64,000 bases of DNA, from NCBI RefSeq assembly GCF_003594885.1, contig NZ_QZEZ01000004.1, positions 1-64,000 of the forward strand, given 5' to 3'. Source of the DNA: Vallicoccus soli. GTDB lineage: Bacteria > Actinomycetota > Actinomycetes > Motilibacterales > Motilibacteraceae. Below the pieces are notes generated by a model that made no database searches, had not been told where the DNA came from, and was given only the letters and a program-made list of their open reading frames with translations. This document shows, in pieces, positions 674 to 55,744 of the stretch (within the stretch, counting starts at the first letter, position 1; each line of letters starts with the position of its first letter). A program made the position numbers and the translations under genes.

Positions 674-746
674 GGGCCTCTAGCTCAACCGGCAGAGCAG
701 CGGACTTTTAATCCGCGGGTTGTGGGTTCGATCCCCACGGGGCCCA
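674..746 (+). tRNA. tRNA-Lys (anticodon TTT), ICE integration target
   Basis: The cloverleaf folds completely. The acceptor stem is GGGCCTC with GGGGCCC (one T-G pair), the D-stem GCTC/GAGC, the anticodon stem GCGGA/TCCGC with loop CTTTTAA, and the T-arm GTGGG-TTCGATC-CCCAC. The anticodon is TTT at 707-709. CCA is not fully encoded (ACCCC follows). From the anticodon loop onward the gene is identical to the sequence at the far end of the ICE. Insertion therefore left a full functional tRNA here and a 3' fragment at the right end. Confidence 0.97.
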
Positions 747-2155
747 CCCCTGCTGACCTGCGGCGATGCCGTACGAGCGGTCGGATCGACCTTCATCTGG
801 GCCTCCTGAGGGCTGCTCTGATAACCGACTGCTAACGGGGCCGTGCTGGACGCACGACGGGGGACGAGCCCGGCGACCGCTTCCGCGGCCGCGTGGGCGA
901 CGGCCGGGAGCACACTCGTGTAGGTGTCGGCGGTGATCGACACGGAGCTGTGGCCGAGCTGCTCGCTGACGACCTTGAGCGGTACGCCGGCCTGCAGCGC
1001 GAGGCTCGCGGCCGTGTGCCGCAGGTCGTGTAGCCGGATCGGCGGCAGTTCGGCGCGTCGGACGATGCGCTGGAAGCTGTCGGTCACGAGGTCGGGGTGC
1101 ACCTGGGCGCCGTCCTCGCGCGTGAAGACGAGGCCGGTCTCTTGCCAGGCGGGGCCCCACGAATGGCGCTCGCGGTCCTGCTGGTGCCGCCACCGGCGCA
1201 AGGTGTCGGTGGTGAAGCTGTCCAGCGGCACCGTGCGTGACCCGCTGTCCGTCTTGGGCTCCCCGACCTGCGTCGCCCAGCCGAGCTGCACCACCTGCTG
1301 CGACACGCGCAGCGCCGCCGCCTCGAGGTCGATGTCCTGCCAGCGGAGGCCCACGGCTTCGCCGCGGCGCAGCCCGCGGAAGGCGACCAGGTGGAACAGG
1401 GGGTAGAGCCGCTCGTGCTGGGCTTCATCGAGGAACGCGCCGGCTTGCTCTGCGGTCCAGACCGCGACGGTCGGTCGCCAGCCGGTCCGCTGCCACTCCG
1501 CCACGCGGTCAGCTGTCCACACGACGGCTCGGGGACGTCGTCCGGACGCGAGCTCGACGTGTGCGGCCGGGTTGGCGACCAGCAGGCGGCGGCGGACAGC
1601 CGAGTTGAGGGCGGACATGAGCGTGGCGTGCACGCGGCGCACCCTGGCGTCACTCAGTGGCCGGGCGTGGTCCGGGTCAGTGCGAACCTCGAGGAGGCGC
1701 TGCAGTTCGAGGTCGTCGCGCTCGGGATCAGTGCCGAGCCGCCGCATCGCTGAGTAGAGGCGTTCGACGTGAGGGGCACGCAGGTCGAGGAGGCGCAGGT
1801 GGCCGAGGCCGGGCCGGAGGTAGAGGTGGACGTGCTCCGTGTACGAGCGTCGGGTCGAGGCGCGCAGGCTCCCCTTGCCGGCTAGCCATTGGTCGAGGTA
1901 GTCGCCGACGCGCATGCGCGACGGCTCGCTAGCGACTCCACCTTGCAGGTCCGCAAGCGCCCGGTTGAGCGCGGCTCGTGCCTCCCGTTCCGTGGCGAAC
2001 CCTCCTCGGACTCGCTGCCGGCGACGCCCGTCGGCCGCGCGAGGCAGGTCCAGGACGAAGTACCAGGACCCGTGACGCTTGCCGCAGTTGATGCGCCGGC
2101 CGGCAGCATCGCGCAGGGTGCCGCAGGGGCAGCGCTTGTGGGTGTGACCTCGCAC
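680..2155 (-). CDS. Site-specific tyrosine integrase
   Basis: A 491-residue tyrosine recombinase that would catalyse insertion into and excision from tRNA-Lys. A Cys-containing N-terminus (CPCG at 9-12) precedes an arm-binding segment, the SAM-like core-binding domain (about 82-195) and the catalytic domain. The full catalytic set is visible: R263 in GLRRGE, K301, H376xxR379 in LHDLRH, H402 in QLGHSS and the nucleophile Y412 in ADTYTS. The GTG start at 2155 lies 4 bp from the stop of the upstream excisionase gene, so the two are probably co-transcribed. The last 22 residues (470-491) are read antisense through the tRNA gene, and the stop codon lies in its acceptor/D-arm junction. The tail after residue 483 therefore depends on whether the element is integrated. 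Confidence 0.96.
   Translation of the reverse strand: MRGHTHKRCPCGTLRDAAGRRINCGKRHGSWYFVLDLPRAADGRRRQRVRGGFATEREARAALNRALADLQGGVASEPSRMRVGDYLDQWLAGKGSLRASTRRSYTEHVHLYLRPGLGHLRLLDLRAPHVERLYSAMRRLGTDPERDDLELQRLLEVRTDPDHARPLSDARVRRVHATLMSALNSAVRRRLLVANPAAHVELASGRRPRAVVWTADRVAEWQRTGWRPTVAVWTAEQAGAFLDEAQHERLYPLFHLVAFRGLRRGEAVGLRWQDIDLEAAALRVSQQVVQLGWATQVGEPKTDSGSRTVPLDSFTTDTLRRWRHQQDRERHSWGPAWQETGLVFTREDGAQVHPDLVTDSFQRIVRRAELPPIRLHDLRHTAASLALQAGVPLKVVSEQLGHSSVSITADTYTSVLPAVAHAAAEAVAGLVPRRASSTAPLAVGYQSSPQEAQMKVDPTARTASPQVSRGGPRGDRTHNPRIKSPLLCRLS
705..748 (+). repeat. attL direct repeat (44 bp, tRNA-Lys 3' part)
   Basis: The 44 bp from the first base of the anticodon loop to two bases past the discriminator recur without a mismatch at 55701-55744 in the same orientation. 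The base before (704 A versus 55700 C) and after (749 C versus 55745 G) differ, which fixes the ends. It lies inside the tRNA gene and beside the integrase gene, as expected of an attachment site. Confidence 0.95.
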
Positions 2156-9522: not shown

Positions 9523-12500
9523 TCAGTCGCTGGTGTCGACCTTGGTTCGACGCCAGAGGAAGGCGCCTGACTCGCTGACCTTGTAGCCGAGCGGGCGCAG
9601 GACCTTGCCTGCCTTCTCCTCGCCGATGGCTGCCACGACGGCTTTGCCGAGGGAGTCCTTGGTTCCGGACGGTTGGGTCTTGGCAAGCCTCGGGAGGTAG
9701 TCAATCCCGAGGTCAATCGATGCGTTAGAGGCCGGACCGTCGTCCGTCGCGAACAGCGGGATAAGGAGCTTCTCGAACAGGAGCTTGCGGGCCGGCTCAG
9801 ACTCGATGCCTGCGTTTTCCCACGCCTGCATGAGGTGCCTGCGCCGGGTGCTGTTGCTCGTGCCATTGTTGTCGACTCGAGCCGCGAGGATGCGGGCGAC
9901 ATCGATGTCCGGCACGAGCCTCGCGCCTGCTGTCCCGGCGGCGCGAAGGATGTCCTTGGTGGGTGCCGGCCGGTCGGGGTCGTCGAGCAGGCCGTGGAGG
10001 ACCTCGATGCGTTCCTTGACCGGGTACCGGGCCACAGCCTTGCTGATCGCGCTGAGCAGGCGGTCGCTAGGGGTTACCTCCTGAAGGGCGATGTCGGTGG
10101 CCGTCAGGAGCGCTGCAGCGTCGGGCTCGGCCAGGGCGATCCAGGCAGCGACGGTGTCGTCGAGCGCGTGCCCGTGCTCCCCGCGCAGGTCGTTGATGGC
10201 GTCGGCGTTGGGCAGCGCGGGCAGGGCGTCGCTCGTCTCGGTGAGCATGCGTCCGAGCAGCCGCAGGCGGGTGGCGTGGGGCTCGGCGAGCCAGGAGCTG
10301 TCGTGAAGCGCCTGGACGAGGTCCGCCCGCGCGTCCGCAGCAGCCGGTCCGGCGGGGACGCCAGGGCGCGGGAAGCCCCGCAGGGCGTCCTCGACGGTAC
10401 TGACGACGTACTGCACCACCGGGTCGTCGAACTCCGCGACGGTCAGGTCGGCGCGGAGTGTCGAGGCGAGGTCCTGCGTCTCCTGCGCGGCGAGCACCGA
10501 AGGGTCTAAGGCTCCTGCGAGCAGCAGGGGCTCCGCAGCCGCAAGCAGCCGACGTCGCTCGTTCGCGGTGTCGTCGTCCTCGACGGGAGTGCCGAGGCTT
10601 TGCCGGACGACGTTGTCCATGCCGGGGCGCTGCGCGGACGTCCGCTGGTCGAGCAGCGCGACGACGGCAGTAGCGGCGGCGCGCGCCGTGGCAGAAGGGG
10701 CCGGCGACTCGGTGCTCGTGGCGTAGTGCCAGAGCTGGTTGACCAGGCGCTGGACGGCGTCGTCGGTCTCAACCGTGGCGGCCGCGGTCGGGCTGACGGC
10801 AGCCAGCCATGCCTGCCATGCCCTGAGGGGCCGCATGGAGCAGGCGGAGATGAGTAGGGCTGCCAGGGCCGGATCGTCGACCGGGGCGAGCCCCGCCACG
10901 CAGGACTCGACGAGTTCGCGCAGCGCGCGGCGGTTGCTCTTGAGCAGTGCCCGCATGAGCGTCTGAGCCGGACCGCCGGTAGCGCCGTCGAGCTGGTCGA
11001 GCAGCGCTGCCAGCGCGGCCTTCAGGGGGTCGTCGAGCCCGGGCTCGTCGTTGGTGCCGCCGGACGCTGGCGGGGCCGGTGCGGGGCGGCCAGGGGTGGC
11101 GGCACGGGCGGCGGGCGGCTCGGGAGGCGCAAGTCGTCCCCGCAGGACGCTGGCCATGCGGCTCTCGGCGGCGTCGAACAGCCGCGCCGCCTGATGCGGC
11201 TGCATGGCGAGCAGCACTTTGGCCGTGGCGGCTGCGGCGTCGCCGTCCTCGGCGAGCAGGTGGGCGACCAGGATATCGGCCGTCGTGGCTGGGTCGACGG
11301 CGATGGCCGCGTCGGAGTCGCCCAGGACCATCATCGCGATGTCGGGGTCGTCGGCGTTCTCGGCTGCGTAGCGGAGGACGATCTCGCGGAGCCGTCCGGC
11401 GGTCGGCCTGTCGCTGTGCAGTCCGAGGCGCCAGGCGCCGTGCAGGCCGCCTTCCGCCACGAGGTCCGGCCGGTCGTTGAGCGGGGCGGCAATGGCGTCG
11501 GCGAGCGCGTCGGCGCGGCTGGCGACGTCGAGCTCCGGGATCGCGGCCAGCGCGAGCAGCGACAGCGCGACGTTCTGCGCCTGCAGGCCGACGCCTCCGA
11601 GGGACTGCCCGATGAGTAGCGTCACCGCGGCGCCGCGGCCCTGCTCGTCGAGGGCCCGTACGGCGGTCCTGAGCGACTCGATCGACGCGTTCTCCGCGTC
11701 CTCCTCCAGCCGCTCGGCGAGCTGGCCGTCCAGGCCGACGGCGCTGCCGGTGCTCTGCATGAACAGCAGGTCCCTGCCCGGCCCGGGGACGGACCTGGTC
11801 CGGGACAGGTAGTCGAGGAACTGCCTGCCGTGCTGCTCCGAGACGTCCTGCGGAGCGTCGTCACCCGCGGCGTCGGCCCCCGTCGCGTGCTCGTCGTCCT
11901 GCTCGTCCTCGTCGTCCCGTTCGGCGCGGTCCTCGTCGGACAGCAGGGTGGCGACGGGCAGCTCGCGGTGGGCGAAACCTCGGGCGATGGCCCGGGCCTG
12001 CGGGGTGGCGTGCGGGTGGTCGTTCCACACCTGGTCCTCGGTCTCGCCCTTGTGGAGGCGCAAGACGTACTCGGGCAGCCGGGCGTCCAGGACGAGGTCG
12101 CGGGCGAACAGCGGAAACTCGACCCGCAGGCACACCATTCGGGCGATCTCGTCAGAGCGCAGCGCCATGTCGCCGTGGAGCCGGCCGTCCTTCTGCCGGG
12201 CCTCGGCCAGCCGGTAGGTCAGCACGAACGCGTTGAGGAGGCTCTTGACCCGCCGGGGGCTGCGGACGTGCGACGGCACAAGGATGGAGACGGTGAGATC
12301 GAGCCTGTCGCCGAGCTCCTTCCACACCCCCGGCCGGTCCTTGACCAGCTCGACGGCGTAGCGGGTGATGCTCGCCTGCAGGAGCGGCGGGACGAGGATC
12401 TGGTACTGGAAGACCTTGTCGAGGTAGGCACTGCCGGAGCTGTAGTACGGGTTCACCGGGTCGGCCGGAGTCGCCTGCTTGAGCTCCTTGTTCAGCGCCT

Positions 12501-13344
12501 CCTCGACGGCCTGCCGGTCGGCGGCGATGACGAACACGCACCGGTCGGCGCCAAGGAAGGTGCGGACCGCGTCGAGCGTGCCGACGACATCGCTGGGAGC
12601 GCACCGGTCGAGCTCGTCGACGAAGACGACGATCCTGTCCTTACCCGCGTCCTTCACGAGCTCCTTGAACAGGTCCTCGAACTGCTCGCTGCTTTCGGCC
12701 TTGTCAGTCTTGTGCTCGACCCCAAGGGACTTGCCCGCGAGCACGATGAGCGCGGACAGCAGGGCGGCGGGAGTGAACGAGGCGACGACGACCTGCTTCA
12801 CGAGCGGTTGGAAATCCTCCCACCATCCGCCCTGCTGAAAGCCGGCGGCCGCTGCCGCGATGAGCAGAAGGCCGGTGAAGATCACGAACAGCAGCCCGAC
12901 GTAGATGCCCGCGAGCCGTAGGAGCGCCGTGCGCGGGACGTCGAAGGTGGTCGTGGTCGTCCCGGCGTACAGGTCGGCGTGGTACTTCGACTTCTCGACC
13001 TTGAGGTCGGTGGCGACGGCGCTGATGAAGTCGCGCCTGAGCGGGTTCTCGGCGTATTTGAAGGCGTCGAAGCGGGCGTAGCCGAGCTTCTTGTCGGCCT
13101 CCACGTACTGCCGGAGCAGGTTGCCGATGCCGCTCTTCCCGGACCCCCACGGGCCGTAAAGCGCGATGTTCGAACGTTCGGGAACGGTCGCCGCGAGCTG
13201 GGCGAGCTGCTGAGCGATCTGCTTGTGGCCGAGCTCGTCCGGCTGCGTGACGAGCGGGTCGCGCTTCTTGGTGTCGGCCGCGACCTCTCGGTCCGGGATG
13301 AGCTCGCCGGGCACGGCCAGCACGGGGGTGTCGGGCATGGTCAC
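9523..13344 (-). CDS. Giant KAP-family P-loop NTPase, membrane-inserted
   Basis: A 1273-residue protein. GTG start at 13344 with GGAGGAGG 7 nt upstream. The KAP NTPase domain spans about 30-440: Walker A GPWGSGKS at 64-71, and two transmembrane segments (about 142-168 and 184-207) inserted between Walker A and Walker B, as typical of KAP proteins. Walker B is IVVFVDELDRC at 238-248, and AADRQAVEEAL and SPRRVKSLLNAF follow as sensor-type regions. A very acidic linker (about 475-505) leads to about 700 residues of Ala/Leu-rich helical repeats resembling HEAT/ARM solenoids. The family includes PifA, the F-plasmid protein that excludes phage T7. A membrane-anchored conflict or exclusion ATPase is likely; the target is unknown. 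It stands as a single gene. Confidence 0.85.
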   Translation of the reverse strand: MTMPDTPVLAVPGELIPDREVAADTKKRDPLVTQPDELGHKQIAQQLAQLAATVPERSNIALYGPWGSGKSGIGNLLRQYVEADKKLGYARFDAFKYAENPLRRDFISAVATDLKVEKSKYHADLYAGTTTTTFDVPRTALLRLAGIYVGLLFVIFTGLLLIAAAAAGFQQGGWWEDFQPLVKQVVVASFTPAALLSALIVLAGKSLGVEHKTDKAESSEQFEDLFKELVKDAGKDRIVVFVDELDRCAPSDVVGTLDAVRTFLGADRCVFVIAADRQAVEEALNKELKQATPADPVNPYYSSGSAYLDKVFQYQILVPPLLQASITRYAVELVKDRPGVWKELGDRLDLTVSILVPSHVRSPRRVKSLLNAFVLTYRLAEARQKDGRLHGDMALRSDEIARMVCLRVEFPLFARDLVLDARLPEYVLRLHKGETEDQVWNDHPHATPQARAIARGFAHRELPVATLLSDEDRAERDDEDEQDDEHATGADAAGDDAPQDVSEQHGRQFLDYLSRTRSVPGPGRDLLFMQSTGSAVGLDGQLAERLEEDAENASIESLRTAVRALDEQGRGAAVTLLIGQSLGGVGLQAQNVALSLLALAAIPELDVASRADALADAIAAPLNDRPDLVAEGGLHGAWRLGLHSDRPTAGRLREIVLRYAAENADDPDIAMMVLGDSDAAIAVDPATTADILVAHLLAEDGDAAAATAKVLLAMQPHQAARLFDAAESRMASVLRGRLAPPEPPAARAATPGRPAPAPPASGGTNDEPGLDDPLKAALAALLDQLDGATGGPAQTLMRALLKSNRRALRELVESCVAGLAPVDDPALAALLISACSMRPLRAWQAWLAAVSPTAAATVETDDAVQRLVNQLWHYATSTESPAPSATARAAATAVVALLDQRTSAQRPGMDNVVRQSLGTPVEDDDTANERRRLLAAAEPLLLAGALDPSVLAAQETQDLASTLRADLTVAEFDDPVVQYVVSTVEDALRGFPRPGVPAGPAAADARADLVQALHDSSWLAEPHATRLRLLGRMLTETSDALPALPNADAINDLRGEHGHALDDTVAAWIALAEPDAAALLTATDIALQEVTPSDRLLSAISKAVARYPVKERIEVLHGLLDDPDRPAPTKDILRAAGTAGARLVPDIDVARILAARVDNNGTSNSTRRRHLMQAWENAGIESEPARKLLFEKLLIPLFATDDGPASNASIDLGIDYLPRLAKTQPSGTKDSLGKAVVAAIGEEKAGKVLRPLGYKVSESGAFLWRRTKVDTSD

Positions 13345-13592
13345 GCGCTGCCTCCTCCGGCGTAGGTGCCGCTGCGCACGTTAGGGCTTGGGGACGACAC
13401 TTTGTCGGTGTTGGGCGGAACCCTCTCGCTCGGCGAGCGGCGTGTGGAGGACTGGCACACGACGCCGACGTCCCAGGCTCGGCGCCCACCGGCCGCGGTG
13501 ATGGCGCCTGACACGCACGGCAGACCAGCCACTTCCACCTGACGCGGCGGTAGCCGGACTTCCGCTCATCGGCAGATGAGTGCAGCGAAGGG

Positions 13593-16234: not shown

Positions 16235-16750
16235 ATGGCTCCTGCAGTGCCGGCTCACGACGGGCCCGCGGCGCTGGTCGTGCGATGTGTTGGCGGATCG
16301 GGGGCTACGACGCTGACCACCGCGCTGGTCCGTGTCGGCGTCCTGGCCGTCGAGAGAGAGGTCCACCACGGCGCCGCCCGTGACGTCGTGCTGGTCACGC
16401 GCTCGACCGCGGCAGGACTGCACCGTGCGGTCCTGCGGACGCAGGCGCTCCTGCGAGAGCCCGCTGTGCGCGTGCACCTGGCGGTCGTCGCCGACGGCGT
16501 CGGCCCGATGCCGCTGGCAGCTCGGGCTCGTCTGCGGAGCCTGCGGCCCCACATGGCCAGCGTCACGACCGTGCCCTACGTCGCGCGCTGGCGCTACGTC
16601 GACGAGGACACCAACAGGCCGCTGCCCGCGGACTACGAACGGGCTCTGCACCGCATCGCGGCGGCCCTCGACCACCCCCGCGACTCACCCGGCGCGGCCC
16701 GTTCCTCCGGGTCCGGCGCCCAACCCGCACGAGAGGACGTCCCGGCATGA
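16235..16750 (+). CDS. DUF6668-like P-loop protein, first gene of the T4SS operon
   Basis: A 171-residue protein with a Walker-A-like GGSGATTLTTAL at 19-30 (the lysine is replaced by Ala/Thr, so nucleotide hydrolysis is doubtful). Then come VVLVTRSTAAGLHRA, VHLAVVADGVGPMPLAARARLRSL and VPYVARWRYVDE. This order is that of the small ParA/MinD-like DUF6668 proteins that precede actinobacterial T4SS genes. The C-terminal 25 residues are disordered. Its stop overlaps the start of the VirB2-like gene (ATGA), so it heads the transfer operon. A likely role is positioning or regulation of the machine. Confidence 0.7.
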   Translation: MAPAVPAHDGPAALVVRCVGGSGATTLTTALVRVGVLAVEREVHHGAARDVVLVTRSTAAGLHRAVLRTQALLREPAVRVHLAVVADGVGPMPLAARARLRSLRPHMASVTTVPYVARWRYVDEDTNRPLPADYERALHRIAAALDHPRDSPGAARSSGSGAQPAREDVPA

Positions 16751-17019
16751 AGTCCCGCCTGCTCGCTGCTGTACCCAACCCCGCGCCGCAGGCGCCCCCC
16801 GGTCTCGGCGACGCCGCCGACACGCTCCTCGGGTGGATGAAGTGGGGCGGGCTCGTCGCCGGCGTCGCCGGCCTCATCATCTGCGCCATCATGATGATGG
16901 TCGGGCGCCGCAACCGTTCGTCCACGGCGGCCGACGGCGCTGCGGGCATCCCCTGGGTGCTGGCCGGGCTCACCGTCATCGCCTTCTCCGCCGGCCTCGT
17001 CGGCGCCGTCGCCGGCTGA
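16747..17019 (+). CDS. VirB2/TrbC-like small membrane protein (pilin-like)
   Basis: A 90-residue protein with a short N-terminal leader region, an amphipathic GDAADTLLGWMKW, and two hydrophobic helices (GGLVAGVAGLIICAIMMMV and IPWVLAGLTVIAFSAGLVGAVAG) joined by a basic loop. Size, two-helix topology and position directly before VirB8- and VirB6-like genes fit the VirB2-type subunit of gram-positive T4SS. No pilus need be formed in this group. Start overlaps the previous stop. Confidence 0.7.
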   Translation: MKSRLLAAVPNPAPQAPPGLGDAADTLLGWMKWGGLVAGVAGLIICAIMMMVGRRNRSSTAADGAAGIPWVLAGLTVIAFSAGLVGAVAG

Positions 17020-17026
17020 CCTGAAC

Positions 17027-17731
17027 ATGGCCACCAACTCGACAGCCAAGCGCCGGGCGCTGGCCCTGAGCGGGGTCGTCGCACTCGTCGCGGGCGCCAG
17101 TCTCGTCCTGCAGCGCGGCGACGCGCAGCAGCGGAGTGGCAATCCCTCGCCTCGGACGTCGGCTAGTGCTGCAGCGCCTGCGCCGTCCGCAGCTGACGTG
17201 GCATGGGTCGACTACCTGGGCGTGCAGCTGCCCGTGTCGCGGATGGCAGGACCCGCCATCCTGCAGCGCGGACGCGCCGCCGGGTTCGCTCCGACTGACC
17301 TCGGCGCGGCGCTGGCCGCCGTGCACTTGCTGGTCCGCGCGTCACCGAGCCCTGGGCCGGCCGTGTTCGGACCGACCCTCGTGGAGCAGGTGGTGGGCCC
17401 GGACAGCCAGGCGCTTGTCAAGTCCGTCGAGCGCGACTACGCGACCGTCCTGCAGCAGTCGGCGTTGCCCGCTGGCGCCGCGGTCCAGGGCGGCCGGCTC
17501 GAGCTCCTGGGCTACCGCATCGCCGGCGGCTCGTCAGGCGTTCGCCAGGTCACGCTCGTCGAGCGGGCTCCTGACGCCAACGGCGTGGGGCAGACGTACG
17601 AGGTCGCGGTCGACGTCCAGTGGGTCGACGGCGACTGGCGCCTCGTCGCCCCCCGGGACGGCAGGTGGGAAAACGCCTTCACATGGCTGGACGTCGCCCC
17701 TCAGCCGTACCTCGTCTTCGGCGGTGCCTGA
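17027..17731 (+). CDS. VirB8/TcpC-like T4SS protein
   Basis: A 234-residue protein with a short cytoplasmic basic stretch, one N-terminal transmembrane helix (LALSGVVALVAGASLVL) and a Ser/Ala/Pro-rich linker. An exported domain of about 170 residues follows (DLGAALAAVHLLVRASPSPGPAVFG ... VQWVDGDWRLVAPRDGRW). The ending WxxGDWRL in a beta-rich domain is that of NTF2-like T4SS assembly proteins. It lies between VirB2-like and VirB6-like genes, 7 bp after the former and overlapping the latter by one base (TGATG). Confidence 0.65.
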   Translation: MATNSTAKRRALALSGVVALVAGASLVLQRGDAQQRSGNPSPRTSASAAAPAPSAADVAWVDYLGVQLPVSRMAGPAILQRGRAAGFAPTDLGAALAAVHLLVRASPSPGPAVFGPTLVEQVVGPDSQALVKSVERDYATVLQQSALPAGAAVQGGRLELLGYRIAGGSSGVRQVTLVERAPDANGVGQTYEVAVDVQWVDGDWRLVAPRDGRWENAFTWLDVAPQPYLVFGGA

Positions 17732-18915
17732 TGCCGTGCATCCCCACGATCCCGGCGACGTGCGCCGTCGCCGACGACCTCATCGGCGCTGCTGCGGGCG
17801 CCGCGGCCGGCGCCGCCGGTGACGCCGCCGCCGACACCCTCGGCAACTCCTTCGCCGACGCGATGCGCGAGGGCGCGGCGTGGGTCATCCGCACCACGAT
17901 CGGCTGGTGGATCGACGTCCCTGCCGTGGACCTCACCGAGACACCGGTCGACGACATCCGCGGCTACCTGTGGTGGCTGGCCCTCGCTGTCGCCGCCGCC
18001 GGGGTCGCCTGGCAGGGCCTGCGCATGGCGATCAGCCGCAAGCCCGACCCTCTCGTCGACATCGGCCGCGGCCTCGTGACGCTGGCCCTGTGGGCCGGCA
18101 TCGGCGTGGCCGGGCCGGCAGCCGCCCTGCGTGCCGGCGACGCCTTCTCGTCCTGGGTCCTCGAGGAGGCCTCGCGCGGCCAGGTCGCAGACCGGCTCGT
18201 CCGGCTCGCCGGGCTCGGCGGCGTCGACTCCGCCGGCGCCGTCATCCTCTTCGGGCTGGTCATGATGGTCGCCGGGATCGTGCAGGCCGTCATCATGGTC
18301 TTCCGCGAGGGCGCTGTGGTGATCCTCGCCGGCGTCGTGGTCCTGGCCGCGGCCGGCAACTTCACCGCCTACGGGCGTCCCTGGCTGATGAAGGTCCTCA
18401 CCTGGATGGTGGCCCTCATCGCCTACAAGCCGGTCGCCGCACTCGTCTACGCCACCGCGCTGACCCTCGCTGGCGAGGGTGAGGACCCGCGCACCGTCGT
18501 CGTCGGCCTCACGATGATGGCGCTGAGCATCGTCGCGCTCCCCGCTCTCATGAAGTTCTTCACCTGGGCGGGTGGCACCGCGAGCGGCATCGGCGGTGCG
18601 GCGGCCCTGGTCGGTATCACCGCGGCCGGGATCCAGACCGCGGCCGCCATCAAGGGCGGCATGGTCGGGGGCGCTGCGGGCGCCCAAGCCGCGCAGCTGC
18701 GGCAGGACCTCGGCCCCGCTGCGGGCCCCGCAGGCTCCACAGGCGCTGGCCCGAGCGGTGCCGGTGGCTACTCCGGCCCGGCCATGGTCGTCGCGGCCCC
18801 TCCCGCTGCTTCAGCCACTACCGCGGCAAGCAGCGGCCCGGAGTCAGCGTCCGCTCGCACCGCCGCCGCCAGTCGTGGTGCCGCTCGTTCGACCGAGAAG
18901 GGGCACCAGCAGTGA
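17731..18915 (+). CDS. VirB6/TrbL-like polytopic T4SS channel protein
   Basis: A 394-residue protein. The ATG at 17731 overlaps the previous stop (TGATG), which decides the start over an upstream frame extension. An Ala/Gly N-terminus is followed by WVIRTTIGWWIDVPAVDL and six or more transmembrane helices (about residues 75-310). It ends in an Ala/Gly/Ser/Pro-rich hydrophilic tail. This is the SCO6881-type arrangement of actinobacterial VirB6 homologues. It would form the inner-membrane channel with the SCO6880 and VirB4-like products. Its stop overlaps the next start (18912-18915). Confidence 0.8.
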   Translation: MPCIPTIPATCAVADDLIGAAAGAAAGAAGDAAADTLGNSFADAMREGAAWVIRTTIGWWIDVPAVDLTETPVDDIRGYLWWLALAVAAAGVAWQGLRMAISRKPDPLVDIGRGLVTLALWAGIGVAGPAAALRAGDAFSSWVLEEASRGQVADRLVRLAGLGGVDSAGAVILFGLVMMVAGIVQAVIMVFREGAVVILAGVVVLAAAGNFTAYGRPWLMKVLTWMVALIAYKPVAALVYATALTLAGEGEDPRTVVVGLTMMALSIVALPALMKFFTWAGGTASGIGGAAALVGITAAGIQTAAAIKGGMVGGAAGAQAAQLRQDLGPAAGPAGSTGAGPSGAGGYSGPAMVVAAPPAASATTAASSGPESASARTAAASRGAARSTEKGHQQ

Positions 18916-20411
18916 GCGCGAGCAGCCTGCAGTCCTCGATCCCCGTGCGCACGTACGGCGGCTGGCGCCGCACCCGCGGCATCGGCCTCTTCGGCCTCGG
19001 CGCCGGCACCAGCGTCGTCGTCATGGGATGCGTCGTCGTGCCGCTCATCGCCGTCGGCTTCTCCCTGTCCGCCGGACTCGCGACCGCCGCACCAGCGCTC
19101 GTCGTCGCGGGCCTCACCCTCGCGCGCTGGGACGGCGTCCCCCTCGCGCACGTCGTCCAACGCCGCCTGCACTGGTGGTGGGCATCCGCACGCGGCTGGA
19201 CCACGCTGCGCGCCAGCACCGTCGTCGACCACTCGGGCGCCTGGACACTACCAGGCCCGCTCGCCGCGACCCGCCTCCTCGAGGTCGAGGACGGACGCGG
19301 CGGCACCTTCGGCGTCGTGCACGACCAGCGGGCGGGCCACCTGACGGCGACGCTGCGGTGCGCCGCGACGTCCACGTGGCTCGTCGACGGCTCCGACGCC
19401 GACGGATGGGTGTCGAACTGGCACGCCTGGCTCGCCTCCCGCGGGTTCGACCCACTCGTCGCTTGGGTCGGCGTCACCGTCGAGACCGCTCCCGAGCCCG
19501 GCTCCACCCTCGTCGGAAACGTGCACCGCCGCCTCGAGCCCAGCGCGCCGCCCGACGTGCGCCGGCTCATGGACGAGCTGGTCTCCCGCTCCCCGGCGGC
19601 CGCCGCCGACGTCGACACCCGCGTCTCGGTGACCTTTGACCCGGCCCGTGCCGCTGAGCGGCTGCCCGACCTCGCCGACCAGGCCGCCGAGGTGTCCCGC
19701 GCCCTCAACGGCATGGAGTCCGCCCTCGGCGAGTGCGGCGTCTCGGTCCTCGGCCGCGCCAGGGCCCACGAGCTCGCCGGCGTCCTGCGCACCGCCTACG
19801 ACCCGCGCAGCCGCGGCGAGGTGAACCGCATCGTCGAGGACACCGCCGACCCGCAGACCCTGCTGCAGTGGACCGAGGCCGGCCCGGTGGCCGCCGACGA
19901 GGGCTGGGACACCTACCGGCACGACTCCGGGCTGTCGGTGTCCTGGGCCTGGCACGAGGCGCCGCGCCAGCAGGTCACCTCCGACGTCATGACCCGACTG
20001 CTCGCACCGGGACGACACCCGAAGCGGGTCACGATGCTCTACCGGCCGCTGCCCGCCGGTCAGGCCGCGCGACTGCTCGAGGACCAGGTCAACGCCGCCG
20101 CGTTCCGCGAGGCGTACCGGCGCACCCAGGGCCGCGACGCCACCGCCCGGGACCAAGCCGACCGCGACCAGGCCGTCGCCGCGGCCCGTGAGGAGGCGAT
20201 GGGCGCCGGGGTCGTCCTCATGAGCCTGTACGTCACCGTCACGGTCACCGACCCCGACGAGCTTCCCGCCGCGGTCGCCGACGTCGAGGCCCGCGCCGAC
20301 CAGTCCAAGATCCGGCTGCGCCGCCTGTACGGCTCGCAGGCCGCCGGCTTCGCCGCCACCCTCCCGGCCGGCGTGCACCCCCAGCACCTCGCCGACCGCG
20401 GCCTCCGCTGA
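18912..20411 (+). CDS. SCO6880-family T4SS protein
   Basis: A 499-residue protein. The N-terminal segment SIPVRTYGGWRRTRGIGLFGLGAG, followed by two adjacent transmembrane helices (about 30-75), is diagnostic of SCO6880 proteins. The rest is the soluble VirB4 N-terminal-like domain with no P-loop. In these systems the ATPase half is a separate gene, which follows here 16 bp downstream. Together the two make the equivalent of one VirB4/TraE. The start overlaps the previous stop by four bases. Confidence 0.85.
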   Translation: MSASSLQSSIPVRTYGGWRRTRGIGLFGLGAGTSVVVMGCVVVPLIAVGFSLSAGLATAAPALVVAGLTLARWDGVPLAHVVQRRLHWWWASARGWTTLRASTVVDHSGAWTLPGPLAATRLLEVEDGRGGTFGVVHDQRAGHLTATLRCAATSTWLVDGSDADGWVSNWHAWLASRGFDPLVAWVGVTVETAPEPGSTLVGNVHRRLEPSAPPDVRRLMDELVSRSPAAAADVDTRVSVTFDPARAAERLPDLADQAAEVSRALNGMESALGECGVSVLGRARAHELAGVLRTAYDPRSRGEVNRIVEDTADPQTLLQWTEAGPVAADEGWDTYRHDSGLSVSWAWHEAPRQQVTSDVMTRLLAPGRHPKRVTMLYRPLPAGQAARLLEDQVNAAAFREAYRRTQGRDATARDQADRDQAVAAAREEAMGAGVVLMSLYVTVTVTDPDELPAAVADVEARADQSKIRLRRLYGSQAAGFAATLPAGVHPQHLADRGLR

Positions 20412-20427
20412 TCTCCGGGAGCCACTC

Positions 20428-21873
20428 ATGCGTACCCGCACACCGCTCATCGCCCCACCTTGGGGCTGGCGCCGCGCTGGTGGCGGCCGGCTCGCCCACG
20501 TCTCCCGCGCCCCCGAGTACCAGGCCACCACGGTGCAGGCCTGCGGGCTCTACCCGTTCGTCGCCGGCTCCGGCTCACCGTCGGTCGGGGTGCCGTTCGG
20601 TCGGCACATGATGTGGGGCGAGGTCGTGTGCCTCGACCCCTTCGCCTGGCTCGACACCGGTCTGGTCACCAACCGCGGTCTGACGCTGCTCGGGCAGCCC
20701 GGCACCGGCAAGAGCTCCGCGCTGAAGCGGCTGTCGCGCGGGCTCATGGCGTACGGGGTGGTGCCGCTGTTCCTCGGCGACCTCAAGCCCGACTACTCCT
20801 CGGTAGTCCGCAGCGCGGGCGGGCAGGTCATCCGGGTCGGGCGTGGCTTGGACCGGCTGAACCCGCTGGACTCCGGGCCGCTCGGGCGCGCCCTCGCCCG
20901 GACGAGCGGGCAGAGCGCGCAGCGCCTGCGCGCGGAGGTCCGCGGCCGACGGCTGTCCGCGACCCTCGCGCTGTGCACGCTGGTGCGCCGGAACAGCCCG
21001 ATGAGCAACGGCGAGGAGATCGTCCTCGGCGCCGCGGTGGACCTGCTCGCGGACCGGCTGCCGGCGGTGCAGGACCCGACGATCCCCGACGTGCTCGCCC
21101 TGGTCCGCGAGGCGCCGGACCGGCTGCGGGCCGCGGCCGAGGTGGAGACGCTCGCGGAGTACCGGGCCGAGACCAAGCCGCTGCGCCAGACCCTCGGCCT
21201 GCTGTGCGAGGGCTCGCTCAAGGGCGTGTTCGACGGACCGACGTCGCGGCCCATCGACCTCGACGCCCCCGCGGTGAGCGTGGACATCAGCCAGGTCGCC
21301 GCCTCCGGGGACACCCTGGTGGCCGCGGCGATGCTCTCGACCTGGTCGTACGGCTTCGCCATGATCGACGCCTCCGCCGCCCTCGCCGAAGCGGGACTCG
21401 CCCCGCGCCGGCGGTACTTCGCGGTAATGGACGAGCTGTGGCGGGCGCTGCGCGGCGCCCCCGGACTCGTCGACCACGCCGACGCCCTTACCCGCGTCTA
21501 CCGCGGCAAGGACGTCGCGCACGCCATGGCCACCCACGGCATGCAGGACCTCGACGCCCTGCCCAGCGAGGAGGACCGGGCTAAGGCCCGAGGCTTCGTC
21601 GAGCGCAACGCCATCACCGTGCTCGCCGGGCTACCGCCGCGCGAGCTCGACGACGTCACCCGCGTCGTCCCGCTGTCCGCTCAGGAGAAGCGCATGGTCG
21701 CCTCCTGGTCCGCCCCGGAGTCCTGGCAGCCAGGCGCCCGCCACCCCGGCCGCGGGAAGTACCTCATCAAGACCGGTCAGCGCGTGGGCATCCCCGTCGA
21801 GCTTGAGTACGTCGCCGACGAGGCCCACCTCTACAACACCGACGCGCCACGGCCCGTCGGGGACGTCTCGTGA
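20428..21873 (+). CDS. VirB4-like T4SS ATPase
   Basis: A 481-residue ATPase with Walker A GQPGTGKSS at 89-97 and Walker B YFAVMDELW near residue 330. Conserved intervening blocks such as LFLGDLKPDYSSVVRSAGGQVIRVG and LNPLD are typical of VirB4/TraE-type motors. The mostly cytoplasmic protein would energise assembly and substrate movement. It follows SCO6880, which supplies the missing N-terminal part. Its stop overlaps the start of the coupling protein (ATGA). Confidence 0.9.
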   Translation: MRTRTPLIAPPWGWRRAGGGRLAHVSRAPEYQATTVQACGLYPFVAGSGSPSVGVPFGRHMMWGEVVCLDPFAWLDTGLVTNRGLTLLGQPGTGKSSALKRLSRGLMAYGVVPLFLGDLKPDYSSVVRSAGGQVIRVGRGLDRLNPLDSGPLGRALARTSGQSAQRLRAEVRGRRLSATLALCTLVRRNSPMSNGEEIVLGAAVDLLADRLPAVQDPTIPDVLALVREAPDRLRAAAEVETLAEYRAETKPLRQTLGLLCEGSLKGVFDGPTSRPIDLDAPAVSVDISQVAASGDTLVAAAMLSTWSYGFAMIDASAALAEAGLAPRRRYFAVMDELWRALRGAPGLVDHADALTRVYRGKDVAHAMATHGMQDLDALPSEEDRAKARGFVERNAITVLAGLPPRELDDVTRVVPLSAQEKRMVASWSAPESWQPGARHPGRGKYLIKTGQRVGIPVELEYVADEAHLYNTDAPRPVGDVS

Positions 21874-23675
21874 CCCGGCCGCTGGAGCCCCGCGTCGGGA
21901 TGCTCCCGCCGGGCACCGGCCTGCCGTTCACGCTACTCGGGCTCGCCTGGGGCGGCGTCGGGCTGCTCGGGCTCCTGTACGGCGCCGGGGCGACAGCGTC
22001 TTGGCTCACCGGCCACGGCTGGCACGTCCCGCCCCTCCGGGCCGCGGCTGTCGACCGGTTGCTCGAGGGCGGTCCGGCGACGCTGTGGCCGCAGGTCCCG
22101 GTCGGCCTGGTCTGGTCGCTCGCGGCGATCGCCGTGCTCGCCGTGGGTGCTCCCGTCCTCGTCGCCGCGGCGCGCCTGCAACGGGGTCAGCGCGAGCGGA
22201 GCCTCGAGCGCTCGCTCAGCGGCGGCGGACGGCTCGTCGCGATGACGCCTCATGGTGTCGCCGAGCGCGCCCCTCGGCTGCGCGTTTCTCTGCAGGCCAC
22301 GCCCGTCCGGCGCATTGCCCCACGGGACGCGGGGGTGCCGCTGGGCCGGCTCGGGCGTCGTGGCCCGGAGCTGCGTGCCTCCTGGGAGGACGTCCAGCTG
22401 GCGGTGATGGCCCCGCGCGCGGGCAAGACAACCTCCCTCGCGGTCCCGGCGGTGCTCGACGCCCCGGGCGCGGTAGTGGCGACGAGCAACAAGGCCGACC
22501 TCTGGGCCGCCACCGCCGCGCTGCGCGCGCAGGACACCGACGAGCCCGTGTGGGTCTTCGATCCACAGGGCATCGCCGCGACGCCCCGGACGTGGTGGTG
22601 GAACCCGCTGCGCGGGCTCGACACCGTCGAGGAGGCGTCCCGCCTCGCCGGGCACTTCATCCAGGAGGTCCGGGGAGACAAGAACGGCCGCGACTTCTGG
22701 ACCTCCGCTGCACACGATCTGCTCACCGGCCTGCTCCTGGCCGCCGCGGCGGGACGACGCCCGCTCGACGAGGTGTACGAGTGGCTCAACGACCCCGTCA
22801 TCCCCACGCCGGCGATGCTGCTGCGCGAGGCCGGCCACCCGGCCGCCGCCGCCTCCCTCGCCGGGCGGCAGAACGGCGCTCCGGAGACTCGCGACGGCAT
22901 CTACGAGACCGCCCGGACCGCCGCGCAGTGCCTCCGCGACCCGCGGATCATGGCCTGGGTCAGCCCAGACCAGGCCGCGCGCGTCCGTCTCGACGAGTTC
23001 GACACCGCGCGTTTCGCGTCCTCGCGGCAGACGCTCTACCTGCTGAGCAAGGACGGCGCCGGCGCAGCAGCTCCGCTGGTCGCTGCCCTCACGGACCGCG
23101 TCATGCGCGACGCCGTGCGCGTCGCCGAACGCCGCGGGGGCCGCCTCGACCCCCCGATGGTCGTCGTCCTCGATGAGGCCGCGAACGTCTGCCGGATCAG
23201 CGACCTGCCCGACTTGTACTCCCACCTCGGCAGCCGCGGCGTCGTCCCCCTGACCATCCTGCAGTCCTACCGCCAAGGCGTACGGATCTGGGGCGAGCCC
23301 GGTATGGACGCACTGTGGTCCGCAGCCACTGTCAAGCTGATCGGGGCCGGCATAGACGACGCCAAGCTCGCCGAGGATCTTTCCCGCCTCGTCGGCGAGC
23401 ACGACGTCTCCGTGCGCTCCTACTCCTACGGCTCGCGCCAGCGTAGCGACACCACAAGCCTTAGGCGCGAGCGCATCCTGCCCGCGGACAAAGTGCGCGC
23501 TCTGCCGCGTGGCACCGCACTGCTGCTCGCTACTGGCAACCCTCCCGCTCTGCTGCGCCTCACGCCCCACTACGCCAGCACTCGAGCGGACGCTGTCGCG
23601 ACAGCCGTACGAGCCGCCGACGGGCTCTTGGCCGAGCGGATGAGCCAGCTCCCGAACAACAGGCAGGAGCCATGA
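21870..23675 (+). CDS. VirD4/TraG-type coupling protein
   Basis: A 601-residue membrane ATPase. Two N-terminal transmembrane helices (about 18-45 and 78-102) anchor a TraG/VirD4 motor domain. Walker A is APRAGKTTS near 181-189, then SNKADLWAATAALR and VWVFDPQGIA. The helical all-alpha region includes RDFWTSAAHDLLTGLLLAAA, and Walker B is MVVVLDEAANVC near 430. A TraM-recognition-type region lies near ILQSYRQGVRIWGEPG. It would receive the relaxase-bound strand and feed it to the T4SS. A degraded fragment of a second such protein lies near the relaxase at 51.2 kb. Confidence 0.92.
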   Translation: MTRPLEPRVGMLPPGTGLPFTLLGLAWGGVGLLGLLYGAGATASWLTGHGWHVPPLRAAAVDRLLEGGPATLWPQVPVGLVWSLAAIAVLAVGAPVLVAAARLQRGQRERSLERSLSGGGRLVAMTPHGVAERAPRLRVSLQATPVRRIAPRDAGVPLGRLGRRGPELRASWEDVQLAVMAPRAGKTTSLAVPAVLDAPGAVVATSNKADLWAATAALRAQDTDEPVWVFDPQGIAATPRTWWWNPLRGLDTVEEASRLAGHFIQEVRGDKNGRDFWTSAAHDLLTGLLLAAAAGRRPLDEVYEWLNDPVIPTPAMLLREAGHPAAAASLAGRQNGAPETRDGIYETARTAAQCLRDPRIMAWVSPDQAARVRLDEFDTARFASSRQTLYLLSKDGAGAAAPLVAALTDRVMRDAVRVAERRGGRLDPPMVVVLDEAANVCRISDLPDLYSHLGSRGVVPLTILQSYRQGVRIWGEPGMDALWSAATVKLIGAGIDDAKLAEDLSRLVGEHDVSVRSYSYGSRQRSDTTSLRRERILPADKVRALPRGTALLLATGNPPALLRLTPHYASTRADAVATAVRAADGLLAERMSQLPNNRQEP

Positions 23676-26207: not shown

Positions 26208-27407
26208 CTACGCCTGCTCGGGTCCGTCCCAGCGCAGGTAGAGCATGCTGGCGTCGTCGCGCAGCCGAGTGGTCTGGTGAGTCAGGGCGGAGCGGACGAG
26301 GCGGCGCAGCACCTCCTGCGGGGGACGGCCGGAGACGTGCTCGCGCTCGAGGAGGTCGCGCAGCCGGTCCTCGCCGAAGTACTCCCCGCCGGGGCCGCGG
26401 GCGTCGACGACGCCGTCGGTGTAGAAGAGCAGCCCGTCGCCGGGCTCGAGGGCGACCTCTATGATCTCGCCGATGACCGGGGCGACGGCGCCCAGGCCCA
26501 GCGGCGCGCCCTGCTGGACCTGCACCTCCGGCAGCGTCGTGCCGTGGCGCACGTGCAGCGGCTGGGGGTGCCCGCACGCGGTCCACGTGAGCCGACCGGT
26601 GCTGACGTTGAGCCGGGCCAACAGCGCGGTGGCGAACGCCGGGTCGCCGGGGTACTGCCGCACGGCCTCGTCGATGCCGGTGGCGAGCTGGTGCAGCCCC
26701 TCGCACTCGCGGCGCCCGTTGCGGTACGCCCCGACGACCAGCGATGCGAGGACGGCGCTGCCCAGGCCGTGCCCGACGGCGTCGAAGACCGCCAGGTCGA
26801 GGTAGCCGAGGTTGAGCGCGTAGTCGAAGCAGTCTCCGCCGACCTCGTACGCCGGCTCGAGCAGCCCCGCGATCGTCGTCCCGGCGACGGAGAATGACAG
26901 CGGCGGAAGCAGGGACCACTGCATCTCCGCGGCCAGGTCCAGGTCCTTGCGCCGGCGCAGCAGGTGGGTCAGGTCGGTGTAGCGGGACGAGGCCAGCAGC
27001 AGGTGCGCCGCGGCGTAGCCGAGCTCGACGCAGTAGTACTCGACGTCCTCGTCCCACTCAGGCAGCGTCATGGACAGCACCCCGAGCCGGTCCGCCCGCT
27101 CGACGACCGGAACCCACACGTGCCACCCGTCCTCGCGCCGCGAGGCGAGCCGGGTGCTGGACAGGAACGCGCGTCCGGCCATCGTCCCGTCGAGGGCGGC
27201 GGGTTCGGGGCGTTCGCCGTGCGGGAGCTCGTCGGGGTGCGGGATGAGCGTGGCGTGCTCGTAGTCGATGAGGTAGATCAGCACGTCGGACCCGCCGAGC
27301 TCGGCGACTGCGAGGGACAGCGTGTCGACCAGGGCCTCCGGGTCCGCGGTCTGCGCGGCGCGCAGCAGCCGCCCGATTGGCCGGTCCAACGGATCGATGC
27401 TCGCCAC
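26208..27407 (-). CDS. GAF-like plus SpoIIE (PP2C-type) serine phosphatase
   Basis: A 399-residue protein. The GTG at 27407 is chosen because AGGAGG lies 3 nt upstream at 27411-27416; 24 codons of open frame further upstream have no such site. The N-terminal half (about 1-150) is GAF-like (DVLIYLIDYEHATLIPHPDE). The C-terminal half is the SpoIIE phosphatase with the metal-binding set EVGGDCFDY, FDAVGHGLGSAV, ACGHPQPL, LLFYTDGVVDARG and RDDASMLYLRW. Such proteins act on anti-anti-sigma (STAS) proteins in partner-switching pathways. The cargo also carries a STAS protein at 38.6 kb and two further SpoIIE phosphatases. Confidence 0.9.
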   Translation of the reverse strand: MASIDPLDRPIGRLLRAAQTADPEALVDTLSLAVAELGGSDVLIYLIDYEHATLIPHPDELPHGERPEPAALDGTMAGRAFLSSTRLASRREDGWHVWVPVVERADRLGVLSMTLPEWDEDVEYYCVELGYAAAHLLLASSRYTDLTHLLRRRKDLDLAAEMQWSLLPPLSFSVAGTTIAGLLEPAYEVGGDCFDYALNLGYLDLAVFDAVGHGLGSAVLASLVVGAYRNGRRECEGLHQLATGIDEAVRQYPGDPAFATALLARLNVSTGRLTWTACGHPQPLHVRHGTTLPEVQVQQGAPLGLGAVAPVIGEIIEVALEPGDGLLFYTDGVVDARGPGGEYFGEDRLRDLLEREHVSGRPPQEVLRRLVRSALTHQTTRLRDDASMLYLRWDGPEQA

Positions 27408-27628
27408 GCGTCCTCCTTGCTCGCGGATCGGACGGTAGCGCCCCACGAATGCCGGCCGCCCCACGACCAAGGACACCACTCCGGCTCAGCGCCTGCGGCC
27501 CGGCCACCCGATGCTGCGCCACGAGCTGACCGACGTAGGTCTCGAGCTCTGGGTGTCGCCGGTGCGGTCGTCTGCGTGCGGGTTCGCTGCTGACTGGGCC
27601 GTCGCTCGTGGCTGCTCGGCCCTGGCGA

Positions 27629-29818: not shown

Positions 29819-30281
29819 CGCGCCCGGCCCCCGGCAGCGCTGTGGGACGGCGCTAGGGTCGCAGCGGCCGGACCGCATCGCGCGGCTCGCCCGAGCGGCG
29901 CCGCACACGGCTGAACCGGTATCCGGGCATCCGGGACGCCTGCCAGGGCGGTGCCGCTGGCCGAGCGATGGCACGGGTCGGGCATGGTTCACGCGCTACC
30001 CCCGGTCCGGCACGTCACTCCCGACCAGGGGCCGTTGTACCTGCTGCTCCTGGTTGGAGGCGATGGGCACCCCCGCGGCTCGTCGACCCGACGGGCGCGG
30101 GTCGTACCTCGACCCGGTGATACAGGCGGGGCCCGCCCCGGAACCCGCTCACGGGGGAACGGGAGCCCCGAGGCCGGCATGAACAGCGTCGCACCCGATG
30201 CCACGCGGAGAGCGGGAGGCGGCGCGGCTGTAGCGCTTCGGCCCAGGCGAGCCACCACCAGAAGCAACGGATGGGTGCGAC
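29819..30281. other. Gap before the pseudogene, no gene seen
   Basis: This covers the uncertain 5' end of the SpoIIE regulator (open but Arg/Pro-rich) and about 290 bp further. No coding pattern, terminator or RNA was recognised. Confidence 0.35.
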
Positions 30282-30601
30282 ATGAGATTGCCGATGCGGC
30301 TAGCTGCGACGACTCGCTGCAGGAAACTGACGTCCATCCTGTTGGCCCTTGTCGTCGTCGCGGGCATGGCCGCCGCGGTAAGCACTGAGCGGACTGCCCA
30401 GGCCACGGAGGCCCCTGGGGGAGGGATACTTTCCTCAAATGCACCCGTTAGGGTGTTTGACTCACGCGCGAACGGACCGGCGCTTGGAGCGGGGCAAGCC
30501 GTGCCTGCGCGATTCGCCGGAATGCAGGGCATTCCTGCGGATGCTTCCGTAGTGCTATCGTAAGCCCGTCGGCTAATGCGAGTATTCACCTGTACCCTTG
30601 A
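30282..30601 (+). pseudogene. Truncated, frameshifted secreted protein
   Basis: ATG 30282 opens a signal-peptide protein (LTSILLALVVVAGMAAAVS). It runs into NAPVRVFDSRANGPALGAGQ and RFAGMQGIPADASVVL, the repeat type seen in many actinobacterial exported proteins (VxDSR..GxLGAGQ...G.P.DAxxVVLN). The frame stops at 30563, but the continuation VSPSANASIHLYP is present in another frame from 30560 to 30598 before a second stop. A small deletion at VVL(N) is therefore the cause. The rest of the gene is missing. The local base composition is also lower in GC. Confidence 0.7.
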
Positions 30602-30633
30602 GGTGCAGGAAGGCCGATCGGCAACACAAGCAG

Positions 30634-30801
30634 CTATCGGCTGCCTCGGCGCGTCAAATAGCGATCGACGCCTACCGCTGCAAAGAGTGCAAGGGCTAGG
30701 GCTGCCCAGATTATGCGAGCCGCAACTGTCTCGGCGCGAACCGCGAGTAGTCCGCCGATAGCAACCGCAACCAGGGCGGGCAGTACCTGCCACCTGCGCA
30801 T
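30634..30801 (-). CDS. 55-residue two-helix membrane protein
   Basis: ATG at 30801 follows a near-perfect ribosome site (AAGGAGAAGGATAGGAG). The 55 residues start MRRWQVLPALVAVAIGGLLA. They hold two hydrophobic helices joined by RAETVAARI, and end in a basic tail DRYLTRRGSR. No family recognised. The strong initiation signal and clean topology argue for a real micro-gene between two decayed sequences. Its GC content is lower than that of the neighbours. Confidence 0.6.
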   Translation of the reverse strand: MRRWQVLPALVAVAIGGLLAVRAETVAARIIWAALALALFAAVGVDRYLTRRGSR

Positions 30802-31062: not shown

Positions 31063-31098
31063 GGCGGTCACAGAGGCGCGGGGTCGTCATCTGACCGG

Positions 31099-34114: not shown

Positions 34115-34123
34115 GGCGCAGGG

Positions 34124-51401: not shown

Positions 51402-52826
51402 TCATCGTCGTTGGGGCGACCGCCCCAGGTTCACCCGATCGTGCTGGCTCTTGGCGTGCCTGCTCGCAGGACCCTGGCCGTCGGTTGCAGAGGCCGGCGC
51501 AGTGGGCGGCGGCCCGACGACGGCACGGCCCAGTTGTTTGTGTCCGTCAGGCGCCAGGTGTCGTCTGACGATCGGAAGGAGGGTCGCCCAGAGGGCTGCG
51601 GCTGAGGGCTCCATGCCCCGTTCGTGGTGCGTCAGCGCGTTGCTGAACGCTTGGAGGGCCCGAGCGTCGGCCGTGGACCTCGTGTCTGGGTCGGGCCTCG
51701 CGCCCCGGAAGTGGAGGTTGTCGACGGCGTCGGTCAGAAGGCCGCCCCGAGTTCCTTCCACAGCACGAGCGAGAAGTTGCAGCAGGTCGTGCAGGGCTGC
51801 CAGGCCGTCCGGCTCGCGGAGCATGAAGGAGTGATGGTGCAGCTCTCGCTCAAGCCGGCGCAGCTGAGCGAAGAGCGCGACGGGCAGCTTGACGGACTGG
51901 CCCCGGCCAGCCGGTACGTGGACGTCCTCGCGCCGCGCGACAGCGTCCGCCGTGCGAGGGTTCGGGCCACGCCTGGCCCATCGTCGTTCGAGCCGCGGTA
52001 GGGCGAGGTCGGGGGCGAGTTTGCTGCCGCCGAACCACACCGGCTGCCCGCGGTCGTCGTGGTCGCCGGGCCAGGCGACGGCGTACCCGGTGCGCAGTGC
52101 GGGGTGCTGTCTGCTGTGGCGTTCGCGGATGAGCAGGCCTTGGTTGCGGAGCCGGTCCAGGAAGTCTTCGGTGCTGGTGGCGCCAGCGGCGGCGATGCGG
52201 ACCTCTCGGCGCAGGGTGAGGCGGGGTGCCTCGCGTCGGGCGTGCCGGGCGGCCTTCTCGGTCTCGGCGCGGGTGGGCCGGCGCGGTGCGGTGCGATCGC
52301 GGGGTGCTGTGCGGACGAGGTGGTAGCGGTCCTCGAGGTCGCGGCACGCTCGCCCGACGCGGTAGTAGTCGTTGGACGGTCGGGCCGGGCGCCCGTCCTC
52401 GCGGGCGAGGGTGACCACCAGGTGGATGTGGTCCTCGGCGTGTCGTACGGCGACCCATCGGCACCCAATGATGTCCTCGGGTGAGGCGCCGGCGGCGGGG
52501 GGCACGAGACCGGTCCGGTCGAGGACTTCGCGGGCGACCGCGCCCCACTGCCCGTCGGACAGTCGGGGGTCGGTCGGTGCGACGCGCAGGGCGCAGTGCC
52601 AGACGGGGTTTGCCGGCGGGCGAGGGCAGGCCTGCAGCGGCTGCTCGAGCAGGTTAGCGAGCCGGCGGACGTCGTGCCGACCCTCACGTACGGCGGGCTC
52701 GAGCAGTTGCGGGTCGTCCCAGGCGCCGACGAGGTGCGGGTCGGTGTGCTCGTTAGCGCGCCCGGGGCCGTAGAGGTAGCGGAGCAGCCCGGCGACGTCG
52801 CTGCCACGGACGATCTTGCCGATCAT
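51402..52826 (-). CDS. MOB relaxase (MobA/VirD2-type)
   Basis: A 474-residue relaxase that would nick at oriT and pilot the strand. N-terminal motif I is GSDVAGLLRYLYGPGRANEH, with Tyr17 or Tyr19 as the nucleophile candidates. The histidine metal triad is AVRHAEDHIHLVVTLA (H129, H133, H135). A long basic C-terminal region follows with no helicase. The N-terminus SDVAGLLRYLYGPGRxxEHxDP is characteristic of actinobacterial relaxases. Its start overlaps the stop of the DUF2637 gene (52823-52826), so the block Rep-like, small ORF, MobC, DUF2637, relaxase is one leftward operon. Confidence 0.93.
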   Translation of the reverse strand: MIGKIVRGSDVAGLLRYLYGPGRANEHTDPHLVGAWDDPQLLEPAVREGRHDVRRLANLLEQPLQACPRPPANPVWHCALRVAPTDPRLSDGQWGAVAREVLDRTGLVPPAAGASPEDIIGCRWVAVRHAEDHIHLVVTLAREDGRPARPSNDYYRVGRACRDLEDRYHLVRTAPRDRTAPRRPTRAETEKAARHARREAPRLTLRREVRIAAAGATSTEDFLDRLRNQGLLIRERHSRQHPALRTGYAVAWPGDHDDRGQPVWFGGSKLAPDLALPRLERRWARRGPNPRTADAVARREDVHVPAGRGQSVKLPVALFAQLRRLERELHHHSFMLREPDGLAALHDLLQLLARAVEGTRGGLLTDAVDNLHFRGARPDPDTRSTADARALQAFSNALTHHERGMEPSAAALWATLLPIVRRHLAPDGHKQLGRAVVGPPPTAPASATDGQGPASRHAKSQHDRVNLGRSPQRR

Positions 52827-55700: not shown

Positions 55701-55744
55701 CTTTTAATCCGCGGGTTGTGGGTTCGATCCCCACGGGGCCCACC
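55701..55744 (+). repeat. attR direct repeat (44 bp)
   Basis: Identical to 705-748. Upstream sequence does not form a tRNA 5' half, so this is only the 3' piece of tRNA-Lys displaced by integration. The host gene on the right (Lrp family) ends 15 bp beyond. Confidence 0.95.

Follow-up and report, generated by a model that had tools for sequence, protein, structure and literature searches.

A long KAP NTPase with a predicted membrane hairpin, carried as cargo by an actinobacterial ICE: a candidate single-gene defence protein

The window analysed here is the whole stretch of 64,000 nucleotides of Vallicoccus soli DNA, and it contains an ICE that carries a gene for a 1273-residue KAP NTPase. On the evidence of the sequences we lean towards the view that the product of this ICE cargo gene works on its own as a KAP-family defence NTPase, anchored in the membrane and directed against phages or plasmids. 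We favour a defence role because the gene is mobile cargo, because its homologues occur sporadically on plasmids, AICEs and integrase-bearing elements, and because several of these have restriction-type neighbours. The original prediction, which was made from the DNA letters, had proposed an undescribed defence effector. Defence is the reading that the cargo status, the mobile homologues and the restriction neighbours support best, but the word 'undescribed' is only partly safe, since one single-gene KAP defence protein with two transmembrane segments, Tmn, is already known.

The KAP NTPase gene and its protein

The minus-strand open reading frame from 13344 to 9523 is uninterrupted over 1273 codons, with exactly the position and length that had been predicted. 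Its GC by codon position is 0.74/0.48/0.90 and it has the top coding score in the window. A chance open reading frame is ruled out by this coding bias and by a relative that is 39% identical over the whole length. The gene is single-copy, with no second KAP in its genome. The features of the gene and its protein are as follows.

9523..13344, minus strand: KAP NTPase gene, 1273 aa, GTG start, TGA stop (open reading frame, Pfam, coding bias, full-length homologue)
13351..13358, minus strand: Shine-Dalgarno sequence GGAGGAGG, 6 nt upstream of the KAP GTG (direct sequence reading)
12208..13221, minus strand: KAP_NTPase domain PF07693, residues 42-379 (Pfam)
13132..13155, minus strand: Walker A motif GPWGSGKS, residues 64-71
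12718..12933, minus strand: two predicted transmembrane segments, residues 138-171 and 181-209 (Kyte-Doolittle, 19-residue window)
12604..12633, minus strand: Walker B motif IVVFVDELDR, residues 238-247
11857..11937, minus strand: acidic linker, residues ~470-496, poorly conserved
11725..11832, minus strand: conserved junction, residues 505-540, YLSRTRSV..GPGRDLLFMQSTG
9526..11724, minus strand: C-terminal predicted-helical region, residues 541-1273

KAP_NTPase is the sole Pfam domain above its cut-off in the 1273-aa protein (E 4.7e-37, 128 bits against a cut-off of 20), and the remaining ~730 residues matched no Pfam family. Among solved structures none matched the KAP domain by sequence. The Pfam match and the two Walker motifs confirm that this is a KAP NTPase with an intact P-loop, as had been proposed. 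The membrane inserts mentioned in the same proposal correspond to the two hydrophobic segments, which by hydropathy are predicted to form a membrane hairpin inserted between Walker A and Walker B, inside the NTPase domain. Membrane segments in this position are a trait of part of the KAP family. The acidic linker was also found, and a stretch resembling the junction that follows it, FL..T..I...P..L.L, is present in some other long KAPs.

The KAP gene is cargo of an ICE

The ICE is 55.0 kb long, apparently complete and integrated at tRNA-Lys, and it is bounded by an exact 44-bp direct repeat. The integrase is at one end and the relaxase is near the other.

674..748, plus strand: tRNA-Lys(TTT), the integration site
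705..748, plus strand: attL-side copy of the 44-bp repeat (3' end of tRNA-Lys)
55701..55744, plus strand: attR-side copy of the 44-bp repeat
680..2155, minus strand: tyrosine integrase of the ICE (Phage_integrase, E 4e-24)
16235..23675, plus strand: transfer module, ending with the TraG/VirD4 coupling protein (21870-23675)
51402..52826, minus strand: relaxase of the MobA/VirD2 type

The KAP gene has the accessory region on one side and the transfer module on the other, where it had originally been placed, and the ends of the element have now been located. Its flanks are a DUF6308 gene and genes without family assignment, and no known defence genes were found adjoining it in the window. Of the genomes of the class, 50 of 296 encode a relative of the coupling protein, and 2 of 393 have the KAP gene, searched for with the 498-residue N-terminus as the query. 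We read a stretch of 11 related ICE loci, nine of which retain at least three transfer genes and two only the last genes of the module, and the KAP gene was found in none of the 11 within the stretch read. Since related ICEs have the transfer genes without the KAP gene, the KAP gene is cargo and lies outside the transfer machinery. The tRNA-Lys locus was not found beside the right flank in family members, so no empty integration site is demonstrable in them.

The KAP protein may instead serve the ICE itself, in entry exclusion, transfer regulation or stable maintenance. Its position, with accessory genes on one side and transfer genes on the other, and its predicted membrane hairpin would both suit such a role, but we consider it quite improbable, given the absence of the gene from the related loci in the stretch read, its location on the strand opposite to the transfer genes, and the presence of homologues on unrelated elements (a RepSA-type AICE, bacterial and haloarchaeal plasmids, and a chromosome).

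Several other features of the element were observed. The minus-strand integrase open reading frame runs into tRNA-Lys (window 680-748), its stop codon is near the 5' end of the tRNA, and the left att repeat lies wholly inside its 3' end. At 33575-35398 the gene for a 179-aa protein with a RES domain, of the RES-type toxin family, stands beside that for an unassigned 424-aa protein on the same strand, and these may possibly be a toxin-antitoxin pair with an unusually large partner. A subtilase gene at 45060-46754 gives a match to the PADLOC model 'subtilase' at E 3e-36 and a weak one to IetS, and no ATPase partner was identified for it. The signalling load of the ICE is unusual, with three SpoIIE phosphatases, a GGDEF-EAL protein and a GAF-EAL protein at 26208-44523, and an RHS-repeat open reading frame at 49118-50623 lies in the stretch of lowest G+C in the element (0.64-0.65). 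Elsewhere in the same genome there is a second TraG-type coupling protein, with 43% identity (G000:C14:50702-52351), and a second related element is therefore likely.

Homologues and their surroundings

The full-length homologue (P0005, locus L025) comes from another actinobacterium of the same class and is 39% identical, with 646 bits over residues 11-1271. Its gene adjoins the RepSA, integrase and GntR genes of a pSAM2-type AICE and lies ~1.6 kb from an MrcB_N gene; a gene of this type occurs in one of 12 congeners, the other 11 being without it. The Dietzia homologue, of 1190 aa, is on a mobilizable plasmid, downstream of an MmeI-type restriction-methylation gene. Long KAPs of 1342-1356 aa are found on rhizobial plasmids, that of S. 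sojae having ~1350, and long KAPs of 1093-1108 aa on haloarchaeal plasmids, two of which have an integrase within ~5 kb of the KAP gene and an Mrr-type restriction gene nearby. No viral homologues were found in IMG/VR viral contigs or phage records. On the M. loti plasmid (locus L041, 8884-17827) the KAP gene is convergent with a gene for an AAA_27 (YhaN-like) ATPase, which is paired with a metallophosphatase gene in an SbcCD-like pair.

In a maximum-likelihood tree of KAP domains, ten long KAPs from actinobacteria, rhizobia, haloarchaea and a Zixiibacteriota MAG group together (support 98/97), and one long-branched actinobacterial row also falls within this clade. We define the long stand-alone KAP clade by a hairpin, a length of ~1090-1360 aa, the lack of a conserved partner gene, and grouping together, and the KAP protein of the window has all of these. 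Judged by eye, a conserved partner gene is absent around the ten members. By hydropathy, hydrophobic segments lie between Walker A and B in all ten, as two segments in nine and as one long segment in M. loti, and no hairpin was found in the QatA and PifA proteins examined. The QatA group neighbours the long-KAP clade in the tree, although support for the branch that joins the two is weak (76/75); PifA of plasmid F stands far away on a long branch.

A check for defence genes near homologues, as the original prediction had proposed, found MmeI, MrcB_N and, twice, Mrr. Using PADLOC models, 48 families, type IIG and type IV restriction proteins included, were matched at 1e-5 among 78 open reading frames around seven long-KAP loci, compared with four families among 86 open reading frames from the region upstream of the transfer genes in related ICEs without the KAP gene, the two sets being unmatched for taxon and element and one protein being able to match several models. 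This contrast is moderate evidence for a defence context. With only those four families in the comparison set, there is little to suggest that the position corresponding to the KAP gene is a hotspot for defence genes in related ICEs.

Homologues in housekeeping contexts had been named in advance as refuting a defence role if such contexts were the rule, and one such homologue was found, the others being largely on mobile elements. In the Zixiibacteriota MAG (locus L003, 7788-13890) a gene for a 1109-aa KAP lies between dnaX and recR, in a row of core replication-repair genes, together with a 105-aa open reading frame that is probably ybaB. This KAP could be an insertion or a domesticated copy. 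It also favours a different explanation, in which the long KAPs are membrane stress or housekeeping ATPases that have no role against invaders and have spread on mobile DNA by chance; KAP NTPases are also found outside defence, for example Kidins220. We regard this as improbable, because the distribution is very patchy (the sole KAP in its genome, and the low counts given above among the genomes of the class and the congeners) and because there are restriction-type neighbours at several loci.

The C-terminal region

About 700 residues of the C-terminus had been described as repeat-like helices that form a long solenoid. The helical part of this description stands, the helical periodicity being 0.93 compared with 0.81 +/- 0.04 in shuffled sequences. 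The repeats do not, as the best internal-repeat score in the C-terminus of the window protein was 54 against a shuffled mean of 49.8 +/- 5.8, and in six members of the long-KAP clade that were tested no sequence repeats were found above shuffles. Structure prediction of the C-terminus with AlphaFold2, from a single sequence, gave ~37 helices with a pLDDT of only 46 and a pTM of 0.29; the model of the N-terminal part was likewise poor, with low confidence, and neither is good enough for a fold search. A pLDDT of 46 is too low to uphold the solenoid of the description.

In three independent groups the identity of the C-terminus compared with that of the NTPase is 26% vs 55%, 35% vs 58% and 31% vs 56%; these are mid-range pairs, with NTPase identities of 54-58% and C-terminal identities of 26-35%. 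In the pair from Ensifer and S. sojae dN is 0.255 in the C-terminus and 0.090 in the NTPase, while the dS values, 1.9 and 1.7 respectively, differ little and are near saturation. The C-terminus is thus constrained but fast-evolving. In an identity profile of the window protein it is fast-evolving to about residue 1200, whereas the tail, residues 1201-1273, is better conserved (42-48% identity), as are residues 501-600, which include the junction stretch; we set the windows of this profile ourselves, and we likewise chose the neighbours and called the genes in unannotated loci. Comparison of C-terminal profiles between the actinobacterial, rhizobial, haloarchaeal and Zixiibacteriota groups detected no homology, the profiles being thin. 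A recognition region would be expected to give this pattern of fast evolution beside a conserved NTPase, but the pattern is not peculiar to such regions. Helical regions of ordinary scaffolds also evolve fast.

A proposed mechanism and its significance

If the protein acts in defence, we suggest that its C-terminus may recognise an invading phage or plasmid by something that the invader makes or does, and that this recognition would relieve an inhibition of the NTPase. The NTPase would then assemble and use ATP, and the hairpins would perturb the inner membrane. Growth arrest or death of the infected cell would keep the invader from spreading, and in this way the ICE would protect its host and exclude competitors. 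More generally, we speculate that the long hairpin KAPs are unnamed single-gene, membrane-embedded immune receptors of bacteria and haloarchaea, each a single polypeptide that combines a recognition domain with a switch driven by ATP and, within the NTPase fold, an effector that disrupts the membrane. This wider proposal is tentative, and we think it more doubtful than a defence role for the window protein itself.

KAP NTPases recur in known defence (PifA, Tmn, Qat), and in each of these the mechanism of the KAP protein is poorly understood. The long stand-alone clade would provide a clean single-gene test case in which ATPase, membrane hairpin and fast-evolving C-terminus are separable and in which related members could swap their C-termini. 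The clade also links the mobile elements of bacteria and archaea through a shared protein design.

Comparison with known systems

PifA, which excludes phage, resembles the window protein in being a KAP NTPase on a conjugative element, but it has 741 aa rather than 1273, has no hairpin by hydropathy and is encoded downstream of pifC. In a single comparison, PifA of F and the window protein matched only locally, in short stretches at the P-loop and at Walker B (E 4e-7). The short local matches, the distant tree branch and the lack of a hairpin rule out orthology, and the link to PifA that had originally been drawn is weak, a family resemblance only. It has been suggested that PifA senses T7 proteins and depolarises the membrane (PMC8594841).

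Judged by NTPase sequence, the known system nearest to the clade is QatA. It is a KAP NTPase and gave both the best PADLOC match (E 3e-25) and the best NCBIfam match (110 bits) of the window protein, but it has ~600 aa, is without a hairpin by hydropathy, and stands in an operon with qatB, qatC (QueC-like) and qatD (TatD), none of which is found beside the KAP gene of the window. Membership of QatA is ruled out by the score of 110 bits, against an NCBIfam equivalog cut-off of 600, and by the lack of a qat operon. QatA multimerises and binds DNA, and it is largely dispensable for Qat defence (PMC12424860). A KAP domain alone is therefore no proof of a defence or effector role.

By architecture the nearest system is Tmn, which we compared by its published description alone. 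Encoded by a single gene, this KAP NTPase has two transmembrane segments and proven anti-phage activity, from which phages escape by mutations in nmad5 (PMC11846954). The single-gene layout and the hairpin of the window protein fit this description, and the actinobacterial gene might thus be a distant member of an already described type of defence. We consider this unlikely, as no Tmn-named PADLOC or NCBIfam model was matched, though the libraries may lack one, and as the enterobacterial plasmid KAPs examined are all PifA-sized (741-748 aa). The window protein is a rare, cargo-borne membrane KAP NTPase of a distinct clade, and its likeness to Tmn is by description only.

A looser likeness, in manner of working, is to Avs and the other STAND/NLR-like defence NTPases, in which an NTPase switch is combined with a long, fast-evolving C-terminal recognition region. 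The window protein likewise has an NTPase and a long, fast-evolving C-terminus, but its NTPase belongs to a different family and its presumed effector is the hairpin inside the NTPase.
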